Shown piece after piece: positions 16,678-21,937 of a DNA stretch of 29,166 nt; position 1 is the first letter of the stretch; every line of letters starts with the position of its first letter. A model generated the notes under the pieces. The model saw nothing but the letters and a program-made list of their open reading frames with translations, had not been told where the DNA came from and did not search any database. Made by a program: the position numbers and the translations under genes. The stretch is from a virus, in IMG/VR virus record IMGVR_UViG_3300028610_000294, positions 1-29,166 of that record; one strand, given 5' to 3'.

Positions 16678-16937
16678 TGAAGTCACTGAATGATAAGCTA
16701 GCAGAGATGCCATTAGAGCAACAGTTAAGAATTGCGAACATGGCACTTGAGGAGATGGGCAAGCTGTACGAATGGCAAGATATAGAATCCGCACCGAAGG
16801 ACGGCACATGGGTTTGTCTTTATCAAGAGGGCTTCGGTGTGCAGCTTGGGGCATGGCTAAAGGGTTCAAGTTCTGAGGGCTGGAACTATACAGAATCGCC
16901 TACTCACTGGATGCCCCTCCCAGAACCGCCAGCCTAA
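16677..16937 (+). CDS. DUF551 protein
   Basis: The ATG at 16677 shares one base with the previous TGA and has GGGGA ahead of it; an upstream GTG at 16674 is less likely. The 86-residue product has a helical start (EQQLRIANMALEEMGKLYEW) followed by a clean DUF551 domain: WQDIESAPKDGTWVCLYQEG and the closing SPTHWMPLPEPP. It is the most canonical DUF551 member in the window. It shares KLYEWQDI with the end of the protein at 10300-10506. Its TAA shares one base with the start of the large terminase gene. Confidence 0.8.
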   Translation: MKSLNDKLAEMPLEQQLRIANMALEEMGKLYEWQDIESAPKDGTWVCLYQEGFGVQLGAWLKGSSSEGWNYTESPTHWMPLPEPPA

Positions 16938-18250
16938 TGGTTGAAGTAGCCATACGAGGCAATCAGCCTAGCCAACATAACTTTCTTGAAGACATGGCCC
17001 CTGGTTGGTCGCTCTATCAAGCTGGTCTTGGTGCCGGTAAGACGTGGGCAGGTGCTCGTAAGTTCTTACTGTTACACGCTATCAATCAATGTCCTGGGCT
17101 TATTGTAGCACCTACGCTGGGTGACCTTTGGCGGTTTGCCGTACCTGAAATAAAGGCAGCGTGTGCCGAGTGGGGTTGGGATTGCACCGTCTATCCTAAA
17201 GGAAGGGGCGAGTATCAATATCCGTTCATGATTATATGGGGTCAGATTATCTACCTCATATCAACCGAAGACCCTCGAAGATTCTCAGGCTTTGAAGTCG
17301 GGCATATCTGGATTGATGAAGCGGCGAAGATCAAGCAGAACCACATAGACCCGACGAGAGACGCGATCACGCAGATACGTGGACGGTTACGCCATAAGAC
17401 TGCGAAAGTACTCCATGCCCTCTGCACCACAACGCCGGAAGGTACAGAGACGTGGATACAGGATTACTTCTTTGACGATGTACGGGATAATCATCGTAAG
17501 TATATCGGAGACACCGAGCAGAACGCCGCCTTACCACAAGAGTTTATCGATGATCTCAAATCCTCCTTACCAGGCCATCTACTCGACCAATACCTTAAAG
17601 GAATAGCCGCATCAGTAATAGCAGGCATAGCACACCCCACCTTCAGCAGAGCCTTACACGTCACTGAGCGAGCTGATTGGGCCAAAGACCCGAAAGGGAA
17701 TAAGCTCCAAGTCCTCACACACATTGGACAAGACTATAACGTTCAGCCGATGTTTTGGGTCGCCATCCAACAGATAGGCGATGTCTTCAACATAGTCGAT
17801 GAGATGTACATCCCTGACTACGCGTTAGTAGATAATGGTATGCAGCAAGCCCACGCTCAAGGATGGGGTGAAACACCCGTTAGATTTCATCCTGACAAGT
17901 CTTCAGGGAATCGTAAGACCACTGGCGACCCTGAATTTACCGTGGTTCAAAAGGAAGCCAGACGCTTAGGCTGGAACTTCTCCGGTACCGCTCAAGGCGC
18001 CAATCCTCCCGTTAATTCTCGCTTGAACTTAGTATCACGGTTGTTACTCGACGGCTTAGGAAAGACACATCTCTTTGTGCATCCTAGGTGCGTACATGTG
18101 ATAGAAGACTTTGAGAGAACTACGCGCAAACAATCGGGGTATGAGTCAGGGGCTAAGGGATTACGCGGCCACGGGTTAGACGGAACTGGTTATACATTCT
18201 GGGATGTCGTTGCACCACAGGGACATATACAGGTTGGGTCGTTTGGATAA
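16937..18250 (+). CDS. terL: Terminase large subunit
   Basis: A 437-residue protein starting at a TAATG overlap. The ATPase half has a Walker A motif GLGAGKT (residues 30-36), the downstream LIVAPTLGDLWRF segment, and a Walker B HIWIDEA (123-129). A coupling-type motif (LHALCTTTPEG) follows. The nuclease half starts near residue 260 with IGQDYNVQPMFW, containing the expected Asp, and ends with an acidic HVIEDFERTTRK segment. The protein cuts concatemeric DNA and powers its packaging through the portal. It is on the short side for a large terminase but all key blocks are present. The reverse-strand tRNA cassette begins seven bases after its stop. Confidence 0.93.
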   Translation: MVEVAIRGNQPSQHNFLEDMAPGWSLYQAGLGAGKTWAGARKFLLLHAINQCPGLIVAPTLGDLWRFAVPEIKAACAEWGWDCTVYPKGRGEYQYPFMIIWGQIIYLISTEDPRRFSGFEVGHIWIDEAAKIKQNHIDPTRDAITQIRGRLRHKTAKVLHALCTTTPEGTETWIQDYFFDDVRDNHRKYIGDTEQNAALPQEFIDDLKSSLPGHLLDQYLKGIAASVIAGIAHPTFSRALHVTERADWAKDPKGNKLQVLTHIGQDYNVQPMFWVAIQQIGDVFNIVDEMYIPDYALVDNGMQQAHAQGWGETPVRFHPDKSSGNRKTTGDPEFTVVQKEARRLGWNFSGTAQGANPPVNSRLNLVSRLLLDGLGKTHLFVHPRCVHVIEDFERTTRKQSGYESGAKGLRGHGLDGTGYTFWDVVAPQGHIQVGSFG

Positions 18251-18256
18251 TAAAAT

Positions 18257-18329
18257 GGGGAGAATCCTACCACTTAGACCACAGCCTGCATAAAGCGAGC
18301 CGGTGGGATTCGAACCCACATCTCTCCCC
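18257..18329 (-). tRNA. Candidate circularly permuted tRNA (T arm before D arm)
   Basis: Read on the reverse strand: GGGGAGA (18329-18323), GAT, T arm GTGGG-TTCGAAT-CCCAC (18319-18303), CGGCTCGC (18302-18295), TTTAT, GCAGGCTG (18289-18282), TG, D arm GTCT-AAGTGGTA-GGAT (18279-18264), then TCTCCCC (18263-18257). T loop and D loop match consensus, but their order is reversed. If the 3' half is placed after the 5' half, CGGCTCGC and GCAGGCTG form an acceptor-like stem (seven of eight pairs with two wobbles), and TCTCCCC with GGGGAGA the anticodon stem (seven of seven). One register gives a five-base variable loop and an anticodon loop ATTTTA plus A, with UUU and a break at 37/38. Weak points: A-C mismatch in the acceptor, no encoded CCA, discriminator C. 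Known permuted tRNAs are from algae and archaea. A recombined tRNA relic is the main alternative. Confidence 0.55.
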
Positions 18330-18330
18330 T

Positions 18331-18406
18331 TGGTTGCGCAGACAGGGGTCGAACCTGTAACTGTAAGATTTTAATCTAACGCTCTGTCCAGTTGAGCTAC
18401 CGCGCA
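18331..18406 (-). tRNA. tRNA with encoded CCA and an odd-sized anticodon loop
   Basis: Read on the reverse strand: acceptor TGCGCGG with CTGCGCA (one G-T), TA, D arm GCTC-AACTGGACA-GAGC, G26, anticodon stem TTAGA with TCTTA (T-T mismatch at 28-42), loop TTAAAA, variable loop CAGTT, T arm ACAGG-TTCGACC-CCTGT, then A73 and CCA (18333-18331). All four arms are present and CCA is encoded, so this is a real tRNA by shape. The anticodon loop has six bases in this register; pairing the flanking G-C instead gives an eight-base loop and a four-base variable loop. Neither gives seven, so amino-acid identity cannot be assigned. It lies opposite to all neighbouring genes and its CCA is followed after one base by the permuted element. 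Confidence 0.75.
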
Positions 18407-18551: not shown

Positions 18552-18585
18552 AAAAAAGCCTAACTCACAACACGCAAGTTAGACT
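18552..18585 (-). terminator. Reverse-strand intrinsic terminator
   Basis: On the reverse strand AGTCTAACT (18585-18577) pairs with AGTTAGGCT (18565-18557), nine pairs with one G-T, an 11-base loop, and then a T run (18557-18552). This is a typical rho-independent terminator for leftward transcription. On the + strand the stem has a mismatch and its T run is interrupted, so it is weaker in that direction. It would stop leftward transcripts coming from the portal side before they enter the tRNA cassette. Confidence 0.65.
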
Positions 18586-18674
18586 TAACTTTTAGAGCAC
18601 ATACCGTTGCTCTCCCTTCTTCTCGCCCTTCCACAAAGGCACGGGCATGATAGTGGGCTGATAGGGACGTCAAG
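18586..18674. other. Non-coding stretch before the portal gene
   Basis: No convincing gene. On the reverse strand there is a hairpin-rich sequence and an 18-codon frame (18592-18648, MPVPLWKGEKKGEQRYVL) that ends a few bases before the terminator, but it lacks a ribosome site. AGAGCA (18595-18600 region) and TGCTCT can form a six-base hairpin. AGGGA at 18663-18667 serves the portal GTG. Confidence 0.35.
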
Positions 18675-20102
18675 GTGAAAACCCTTCTTTACTGTTCCAT
18701 TAAATACGCTTGGGGAATGCCCTTAATTGTAAAAGACGGTAAGATCGTAAAAAACCCTAATTATGATAAAATGGTGACACGTCAAAAGTACTGGCGTTTG
18801 TCCTACGATTGTTACGGGCCTGACTATATCGAAGCCACTGACGGCGAAGGTATTAACATCATTCGCAAGCATGAGCGTGAAGACGATGAGGATTATCTAC
18901 GCCGTAAGCAATCGACTATCCCCTACTGTTTTGTAGGTCCGATTCTCAGACGATACAATGACTTCATCTTTCGTAAGCCTGCTGATATTGACAAGAACGT
19001 CTTAGGTGATTTCTTTGAAGATGTCGATGCATTAGGATCATCTGAGAATGAGTTCATGAGTACCAATTTACTCAACGCTCAGATAGATCGAACCGGTTAC
19101 ATCTTAGTGGATTTCATAGGCAGTGGTGAGGAGAAGACCACGGCGCAAGCACAGGCTGATGGTGATCGATTCGTGTGGAAGCAGATACTCGCACCGCAAG
19201 TGGTTCAATCGACATGGTTTCAAGGCCGATTAGTAGATGCGGCTATCCTTATGAAGAAGATGAACGGTACTGACTTTATCTGGTATGTCACTCCAACGAC
19301 TACGCAAGAGATCACGGTGAAGGTTGACGGCGGGTCTATAATGGTCCTCGAAGTCTTTCCTGAAACACCACATACGTATGGTGGTACGCCCTTAGTTCCT
19401 AACAGGCCGAAGTTCGGCACGATCTCTCAAGCAGCCCCCATAGCGGAATTACAGAAGGGTATTGCTCGACTCCGTTCATTCTTGATAGAAGAAATGGCAG
19501 GCTCTACCTTTTCGCAGATGGTCATCATTGGAGCGTCAGCAGAGAACGCATCGAAGACCATGAAGCACGGGCCTCATCAAGCGATCTACATTCCTGAACC
19601 TACGGCGAGTATGCAAACCCTTGGAGCGGATGTCGCACAAGCGGGGAGTATTCGTCAGTCTATCCTGGATGATAGCGGAGAACTCCATCGAGTAGCTGGT
19701 ATATCCTCAACGGATAACGACGGCGGTGTGGAATCTGGACTCGCAAAATCATTCACCTTCAACGACTTATCAGCGAATCTCTCGTCTTTAGCCAAGAGCA
19801 CACAAGATGCCCATCAACGGGCTGAGCAATTGACGGCTAATGCGATGAGTGTCACTGACTTCGAAGCAACGGTGTATCCAAGTGATTTCAATATGCCGAT
19901 GCTACAAATGGAACTCGCAGAGGTGGTATCTGCCAACAGCAGTAACCTACCGAGAATAATCAAAGATAAACTTATCAAGCGTTTCGTAAATCGGAATCTG
20001 GAACTAACAGACGAAGATAAGAAAGTGCTTGAACAACAACTTGCAGACTCAGGCGTGTTGCCTGGATTTGCGAATCAATTTGCTGAACGGAATGTCGGCT
20101 AG
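18675..20102 (+). CDS. Portal protein (DUF4055-like)
   Basis: A 475-residue protein. The GTG at 18675 has AGGGA seven bases ahead; an ATG at 18717 (MPLIVKDGKIV) is an alternative start that would remove 14 residues. The body follows the DUF4055/portal pattern: YWRLSYDCYGPDYIEA, then YLRRKQSTIPYCFVGPILRR and YNDFIFRKPADI, a GYILVDFIG strand, and a long helical C-terminal third with Ala-rich segments. Portals form the twelve-fold ring at one head vertex, the entrance for DNA and the seat of the tail. The position between large terminase and scaffold-like gene, apart from the tRNA cassette, is the usual one. Confidence 0.8.
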   Translation: MKTLLYCSIKYAWGMPLIVKDGKIVKNPNYDKMVTRQKYWRLSYDCYGPDYIEATDGEGINIIRKHEREDDEDYLRRKQSTIPYCFVGPILRRYNDFIFRKPADIDKNVLGDFFEDVDALGSSENEFMSTNLLNAQIDRTGYILVDFIGSGEEKTTAQAQADGDRFVWKQILAPQVVQSTWFQGRLVDAAILMKKMNGTDFIWYVTPTTTQEITVKVDGGSIMVLEVFPETPHTYGGTPLVPNRPKFGTISQAAPIAELQKGIARLRSFLIEEMAGSTFSQMVIIGASAENASKTMKHGPHQAIYIPEPTASMQTLGADVAQAGSIRQSILDDSGELHRVAGISSTDNDGGVESGLAKSFTFNDLSANLSSLAKSTQDAHQRAEQLTANAMSVTDFEATVYPSDFNMPMLQMELAEVVSANSSNLPRIIKDKLIKRFVNRNLELTDEDKKVLEQQLADSGVLPGFANQFAERNVG

Positions 20103-20800: not shown

Positions 20801-21937
20801 ATGGGTAATAACACACTCACTCCGGCATTGCCGAAAATCATATCAGACTTCCGCGAAGTTAACCGCGAAGCAACTGGTTTAACGAAATCTGTTAACACCG
20901 ACTTTGACACCAAAGGCGCGGCTCAAGATGAAGTCATCACCGTTCCTATTGCTGCTAGTGGTACTGCTCGCAACTTAACCGTTGGCGTCGTTACTACAGA
21001 AGCGGCTGCGGTGGTTGTGACTAATGTCAGCGTGACGTTAGACAACGCTCGTGAAGTTCCATTCCACTTAAGCGGTGAAGAAGAACTCGCACTCGCACAG
21101 CAACGTGAAGGTTTCATGAATGGTACCATGATGGAATCTATGCGGACGCTCATCAATGAGATAGAAACAAGCTTAGGCGTGTCTCTTGCTCTTGGTGGTG
21201 CATATGGATTCGGTACAGAAACCGTTACTCCATTCGCTTCAAACCTGAATGACACTGCTGCTACTGAGGAGTTCCAGAACTTCTCTGCTGCTCCGCAAAC
21301 CTTGCGTAGTGTGGCTATTGATTCTCTAGCAATACAGAATCTTGGCGAGCTGACTCAGTTGACTAACGTCAATCAAGCAGGGTCAAGCGAAACACTCAGA
21401 GATGGTGTTGTCTCCCGTTTACACGGTCAAGACATTCGCTACTCAGACGGGTTGGCTCGTCCTGTTATCGGTACGGGTACTGGCTATTTAATAGACGGTG
21501 CGTTGGCTGTTGGTGCAACAACTCTAACAGTTGACACTGGTTCAGGTACAATCGTAGCCGGTGACTTAATCACCATCGTTGGTTCAAGCTTCAAGTACAT
21601 TGTCAAGACTGCCTTAACAGGTGGCGTGACTCTTGTGATTGGTGGCAAGGGCTTACGTGATGCGATTGCTGACAACGCGGCTGTGACCGTGGTTGCTATC
21701 TCAACTCGTAACATTGCTGTTCAACGTGACGGTGCGGTCTTGGCGGTTCGTCCTCCAGCCTTACCAGAAGGCGGCGACAGTGCGCGCGAGTCTGCGAACA
21801 TCACTGACCCAGTAAGCGGATTAACCGTTAACTTGAGTAAGTATGTAGACCACAGACAGGCTCAATGGGAGCTCTCCGCTGTATGGGGATCTGCCATCAT
21901 AGATGACAACCGCGTACATCAGATACTCGGACAATAA
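20801..21937 (+). CDS. Major capsid protein, P22 coat-like
   Basis: A 378-residue protein with AAGGAAA ahead of its ATG. It resembles the P22 gp5 group: an N-terminal arm, VSVTLDNAREVPFHLSGEEE (the typical coat strand followed by a charged helix), an Ala/Leu-rich long helix, and near residues 225-300 a Gly/Thr-rich insert (GAVGATTLTVDTGSGTIVAG-like pattern, ending GSSFKYIV) similar to the extra domain of P22 coats. The C terminus is VWGSAIIDDNRVHQILGQ. It forms the icosahedral shell. The call is supported by the scaffold-like gene before it and a hairpin behind it. It is shorter than P22 gp5 (about 430). Confidence 0.8.
   Translation: MGNNTLTPALPKIISDFREVNREATGLTKSVNTDFDTKGAAQDEVITVPIAASGTARNLTVGVVTTEAAAVVVTNVSVTLDNAREVPFHLSGEEELALAQQREGFMNGTMMESMRTLINEIETSLGVSLALGGAYGFGTETVTPFASNLNDTAATEEFQNFSAAPQTLRSVAIDSLAIQNLGELTQLTNVNQAGSSETLRDGVVSRLHGQDIRYSDGLARPVIGTGTGYLIDGALAVGATTLTVDTGSGTIVAGDLITIVGSSFKYIVKTALTGGVTLVIGGKGLRDAIADNAAVTVVAISTRNIAVQRDGAVLAVRPPALPEGGDSARESANITDPVSGLTVNLSKYVDHRQAQWELSAVWGSAIIDDNRVHQILGQ

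Follow-up and report, generated by a model that had tools for sequence, protein, structure and literature searches.

Can a bacteriophage carry a circularly permuted tRNA gene? The question is raised by a short module at 18257-18329 of IMG/VR virus record IMGVR_UViG_3300028610_000294, all 29,166 bases of which (the window) were analysed. The contig has the gene order of a tailed phage, with genes for a terminase (16937-18250), a portal (18675-20102) and a P22-type coat protein (20801-21937), and the module lies with a tRNA gene between the terminase and portal genes, on the strand opposite to them. An initial annotation had proposed that the module is a tRNA gene in which the 3' half precedes the 5' half, and had remarked, correctly, that permuted tRNA genes are not normal annotated features of phages; the literature that we found reports them from algae and a few archaea, and names none in phages or bacteria. 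Those of Cyanidioschyzon, green algae and Thermofilum have bulge-helix-bulge (BHB) splice motifs and defined anticodons, and the T. pendens permuted tRNA is broken at 59/60 and has an encoded CCA (PMC3218864, PMC3978253); the algae and archaea with such genes have tRNA splicing endonucleases. The phage module resembles these genes in the order of its halves and in its short intervening sequence, but it has no BHB, no CCA and no unique anticodon.

Structure of the permuted module

Read on the minus strand, the 5' part of the module is GGGGAGA GAT GTGGG-TTCGAAT-CCCAC CGGCTCGC TTTAT, preceded by an A at 18330, and the 3' part is GCAGGCTG TG GTCT-AAGTGGTA-GGAT TCTCCCC, ending at 18257, so that the arms follow one another as outer stem, T arm, acceptor hairpin and D arm. 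The outer, anticodon-like stem is an unbroken 7-bp helix in which GGGGAGA (18323-18329; tRNA positions 38-44 in the standard register) forms 7/7 Watson-Crick pairs with TCTCCCC (18257-18263, followed by ATTTTATT). The T arm (18303-18319), which a tmRNA T arm also matches, has a stem of 5/5 pairs and is joined with zero intervening bases to the acceptor 3' strand, CGGCTCG plus a C at position 73 (18295-18302). This pairs 7/8 with the acceptor 5' strand GCAGGCTG (G-1 and positions 1-7; 18282-18289) across the TTTAT loop (18290-18294), in which there is no CCA; the pairs include G-1:C73 and two G.U pairs, and the single mismatch is A.C. U8 and G9 (18281-18280) stand ahead of the D arm (18264-18279), whose stem is paired 4/4, with two G.U pairs, and the spacing is that of a tRNA. 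The minimum free energy (MFE) fold of 18329-18257 is exactly this four-arm cloverleaf (-30 kcal/mol, z = -2.1), and the positions that make tertiary contacts agree with those of a tRNA (U8, A14, R15/Y48, G18G19, A21, U54-A58, G53-C61 and C56). Both the permuted order and the pairing of the outer, acceptor and T stems are as the initial annotation had described them.

The module starts one base past the CCA of an ordinary-order tRNA gene (18331-18406, minus strand; Rfam tRNA, 50.9 bits), which is the only tRNA called by ARAGORN in the unjoined sequence, as tRNA-???. The anticodon loop of this tRNA has six bases (TTAAAA) and its anticodon stem has a T.T mismatch; it may be decayed, mis-assembled, or a variant in the anticodon loop. 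Upstream of the minus-strand pair and just ahead of the portal gene is a strong terminator-like hairpin (18556-18586) with an A-rich side and a T-rich side, which may be bidirectional.

When the two halves of the module are rejoined in silico, the acceptor and anticodon stems are restored, as had been proposed, and 33 of the 36 joins are recognised as a tRNA by ARAGORN. The ARAGORN call varies with the chosen join, and neither half yields an unambiguous anticodon loop. In the standard numbering (D stem 22-25, T26, C27) the loop begins C32-A33, lacking U33, and the variable loop has four bases, not the five originally counted. The UUU anticodon assigned earlier proved to be one arbitrary register that needs an extra base between the D stem and the anticodon stem, and the case for a Lys-UUU tRNA is weak.

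These features bear on the proposal that the module is a working circularly permuted tRNA, whose transcript an RNA ligase would close into a circle at the anticodon loop, after which RNase P and 3' processing would open the acceptor hairpin and CCA would be added, giving for example tRNA-Lys(UUU). ARAGORN does accept the rejoined sequences, Lys-ttt joins included, with the register ATTTTA|A the loop is canonical and has U33, and a large phage family of genuine-looking permuted tRNAs exists (see below). Nonetheless, that register is the one in which an additional base must follow the D stem, the others are without U33, and C1-G72, A2xC71 and the absent CCA make for a poor acceptor. There is no splicing signal at the break, neither a BHB or bulged helix nor the ACAGCAA flank of that phage family, and no RtcB or RNA_ligase-family gene is found on the 29-kb contig, a fragment whose host might supply one. 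We consider a working permuted tRNA improbable; of the initial proposal, the permuted order and the origin of both halves from one tRNA (shown in the next section) stand, whereas the status of a tRNA gene is doubtful, the anticodon register being arbitrary and a splicing signal, a CCA and a ligase gene on the contig all lacking.

Origin of the two halves

A permuted-tRNA finder in which all four stems are required gives the module a score of 20, and no equal match was obtained in 3.5 Mb of dinucleotide shuffles. Applied to 151 loci of coat-protein relatives, it returned only four matches, with a score of 18 (L235, L268). A covariance-model search, as had been suggested, was less decisive: a model of the module alone (R1) scores it at 46.8 bits, but ordinary tandem tRNA junctions reach the same score, such that the T-D order alone proves nothing. 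Because R1 fails to separate permuted RNAs from tandem junctions, pairing controls were used instead, in which the halves of 573 phage tRNAs were joined in 327,756 combinations and scored for an acceptor stem of at least 6/7 together with an anticodon stem of 5/5. Both stems are restored in 0.15% of combinations of unrelated halves, compared with 84% when the halves come from the same tRNA, and the halves of the module can therefore be traced to a single tRNA or to two copies of it; the permuted module is not a chance occurrence. A deletion that joined the halves of two different neighbouring tRNAs, with fortuitous pairing, would account for the R1 score equally well, but it would have to fall within that 0.15% and also produce an outer stem of 7/7 Watson-Crick pairs, and is very improbable, in agreement with the initial annotation.

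We also considered whether the module could be an attP site with a host-derived tRNA 3' half in it, copies of such halves being common at attP sites. This is rejected as having next to no likelihood: a search of 398 Pseudomonadota genomes that allowed up to 3 mismatches did not find the 3' half, none of the ORFs searched was recognised as an integrase, the position between terminase and portal is odd for an attP, and the D-arm half is left unexplained.

Searches for relatives of the locus were negative. Close relatives of the phage were found neither by DNA nor by terminase searches, no tRNA-like module occupies the same place in the coat-protein relatives, which reach at most 40% identity, and viral contigs yielded no homologue to patterns built on the T and D arms of the module; a looser Glu-type pattern matched only ordinary tandem tRNAs. 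Weak Rfam matches in the contig to ST7-OT3_4 and plastid UTRs were set aside as chance.

Permuted tRNA-like RNAs in other phages

Viral contigs were scanned with a loose T-arm/D-arm pattern, yielding, among the matches listed, 62 T-D modules that lie outside ARAGORN tRNAs and were picked without regard to acceptor pairing. An acceptor hairpin (at least 6/7) is present in 54 of these 62, compared with 3.8% of mismatched controls and 10/212 ordinary tandem tRNA junctions. Across 51 phage modules the acceptor, T and D stems covary (97% paired; covariation score 0.89, where shuffles score 0.22 and slid controls 0.10-0.19), with the proviso that pairing was partly a selection criterion for this set. 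Viral contigs hold many permuted tRNA-like RNAs, which fall into two main families, and the module at 18257-18329 fits neither, sharing the permuted module without the signatures of either.

The first family is linked to Ro60. Many of its phage modules match the Rfam family YrlA (RF02553) at 30-58 bits, the best Ro60-linked member scoring 58.4 bits and likewise falling under the gathering score of 69, and a Ro60/TROVE gene is found in 16/39 module-carrying records, often within about 1 kb. These Ro60-linked modules belong to the YrlA type of Y RNA, which is already known. In YrlA a Ro60-binding stem bears a tRNA-like domain made up of D, T and acceptor arms (PMC8394870, which cites Chen et al. 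2014 and the structure PDB 6CU1), and it has been proposed that YrlA inhibits an anticodon nuclease competitively (PMC7790460). Since YrlA Y RNAs have the permuted order too, that order is not by itself enough to identify a permuted tRNA gene. Phage loci in which Y RNAs resembling YrlA were seen close to Ro60 genes are L101, L116, L120, L137, L142, L181, L182, L191, L201 and L203. In several of the Ro60-linked RNAs the 3' half still includes a canonical anticodon loop of a tRNA (CTGTTAA in L137, TTTTGGA in L203), and the retention of these loops suggests that the RNAs arose from tRNAs.

The module shares with YrlA the succession of outer stem, T arm, acceptor-like hairpin and D arm, and the lack of CCA. 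Of the non-tRNA families in Rfam, YrlA alone matches the module over its full length, though at 14.7 bits, far from the cutoff of 69; in the search of the contig the E value is 0.054 and the alignment spans model positions 13-97 with the arms in register, and in the library search E is 2.3. The module differs from YrlA further in that no Ro60-binding stem extends past the anticodon-like stem, the 5' flank being the neighbouring tRNA, and in that no Ro60/TROVE gene is present on the 29-kb contig, which is a fragment. The only candidate for an extended outer stem was an 8-bp match of borderline significance (TACAGGTT/AACCTGTA; about 5% expected by chance, by our own estimate), and it was dismissed, as its strands fall in the T arm of the neighbouring tRNA and in the terminase gene. 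The permuted (two-piece) tmRNA RF04321 also has a permuted tRNA-like domain, but it matches at 9.1 bits (E = 8.6) and the module has no mRNA-like part.

In the second family an outer helix ends just before an ACAGCAA motif, after which come the tRNA 3' half, the acceptor hairpin, the D arm and the helix partner. A dedicated scan of viral contigs gave at least 87 distinct members (examples are L296-L405, L160, L175, L123, L151, L337, L350 and others). Among the matches listed, the outer helix has at least 6 Watson-Crick pairs in 85/87, and 46/87 have a canonical anticodon loop inside the 3' half. In 32 members the 3' half cannot close the anticodon stem, and 26 of these, again among the matches listed, form a perfect five-pair stem with their own 5' half; with shuffled 5' halves for the same 32 members, perfect stems number 5.5 on average and 12 at most. 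From their sequences these members have the look of true permuted tRNA genes in which the break falls within the anticodon stem, and for which the ACAGCAA flank could be a shared splicing-like signal. Ro60 is found in only 1/16 large contigs tested that carry members, and in the first set of loci the one ACAGCAA carrier with Ro60 is L120, which also bears modules of the Ro60-linked family. RNA_ligase-family genes are present in 12/17 large records with members; large phages often have genes of this kind. The family is apparently undescribed so far, no description having been found in a literature search whose reach did not extend to preprints and most subscription papers.

An isolate also carries a relative of this family. 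Synechococcus phage BUCT-ZZ01 has, among its many normal tRNA genes, an unannotated permuted gene with a shorter CAGCAA (ON615601.1, 122116-122237, minus strand; L286, 9001-9122), and an RNA_ligase homologue at 82594-83130.

Two further observations were made on carriers of the ACAGCAA family. The members in L122, L160 (2371-2453), L198 (7510-7587), L347, L356 and L362 have nearly one body (AATCTTTCTNNNAAAAAGAGGGT) and differing anticodons (GAA, ACG, TAG, GGA and GTA occur on it), as if these were swapped on one scaffold. A 178-kb phage contig with an ACAGCAA-type permuted tRNA also bears a tmRNA gene (L093:158-447, 82.4 bits).

Members of this family resemble the module in their permuted T arm, acceptor hairpin and D arm, and sometimes lie beside normal tRNAs. 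The module, however, has none of their distinguishing features: no outer helix with ACAGCAA lies upstream of its 3' half, and there is no anticodon loop within that half, whereas in the family the loop is often canonical and the break is at 27-30.

A possible mimic, remnant or outlying member of a wider class

We tentatively prefer the interpretation that the module is a real permuted tRNA-like RNA gene whose product acts unspliced as a tRNA mimic. Most likely it would be co-transcribed behind the neighbouring tRNA, with 3' processing of that tRNA setting its 5' end, and the unspliced permuted fold may then act on tRNA-binding enzymes or nucleases as a decoy, or provide them with a binding platform; transcription, lack of splicing and mimicry are all steps that we infer. 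This interpretation is suggested by the closure of the acceptor as an 8-bp hairpin (G-1:C73) without CCA, though the neighbouring tRNA encodes one, and by the failure of either half to give a clear anticodon loop. The permuted cloverleaf as MFE fold, the shared origin of the halves, the acceptor hairpins of the 54/62 modules, the covariation in the 51 phage modules and the coverage of the whole module by YrlA also argue for it. The low YrlA score, the missing Ro60-binding outer stem and Ro60 gene, and the occurrence of the module on a single contig, for whose locus the searches gave no homologue, count against it, as do signs of decay: the Watson-Crick pairs in its acceptor (4/7) and D stem (2/4) are the fewest of 54 modules compared, and the neighbouring tRNA is defective.

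These signs also speak for a rival explanation, in which two tandem copies of one tRNA gene were stripped of their outer halves, or an older permuted RNA was, and a decaying, functionless permuted remnant was left; it is quite possible, but we regard it as somewhat doubtful. In addition to the weak stems and the six-base loop and mismatch of the adjacent tRNA, the breakpoint adjoins that tRNA's CCA with no flanking signal, and the searches found no homologues and no module at the same place in the 151 coat-protein relatives. Against this, the T arm and the 7-bp outer stem are perfect and the conserved tRNA tertiary bases are all intact; tandem copies with encoded CCA would leave a CCA in the linker, where there is none; and phage genomes seldom retain dead sequence.

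A broader proposal is that circularly permuted tRNA genes form a widespread class in phages that has so far gone undescribed, that many of them are apparently joined within the anticodon stem, and that the module at 18257-18329 is an outlying member, flank-less or eroded, and not a Y RNA or an accident. Taken as a whole we think this rather unlikely.

The main result reaches beyond the module itself: phages often carry permuted tRNA-like genes, and the ACAGCAA family deserves a study of its own. Synechococcus phage BUCT-ZZ01, which grows on S. elongatus PCC 7942, is an isolate that would allow a direct test of splicing. If the RNAs of the ACAGCAA family are spliced, phages of bacteria would have an undescribed route for joining tRNAs.
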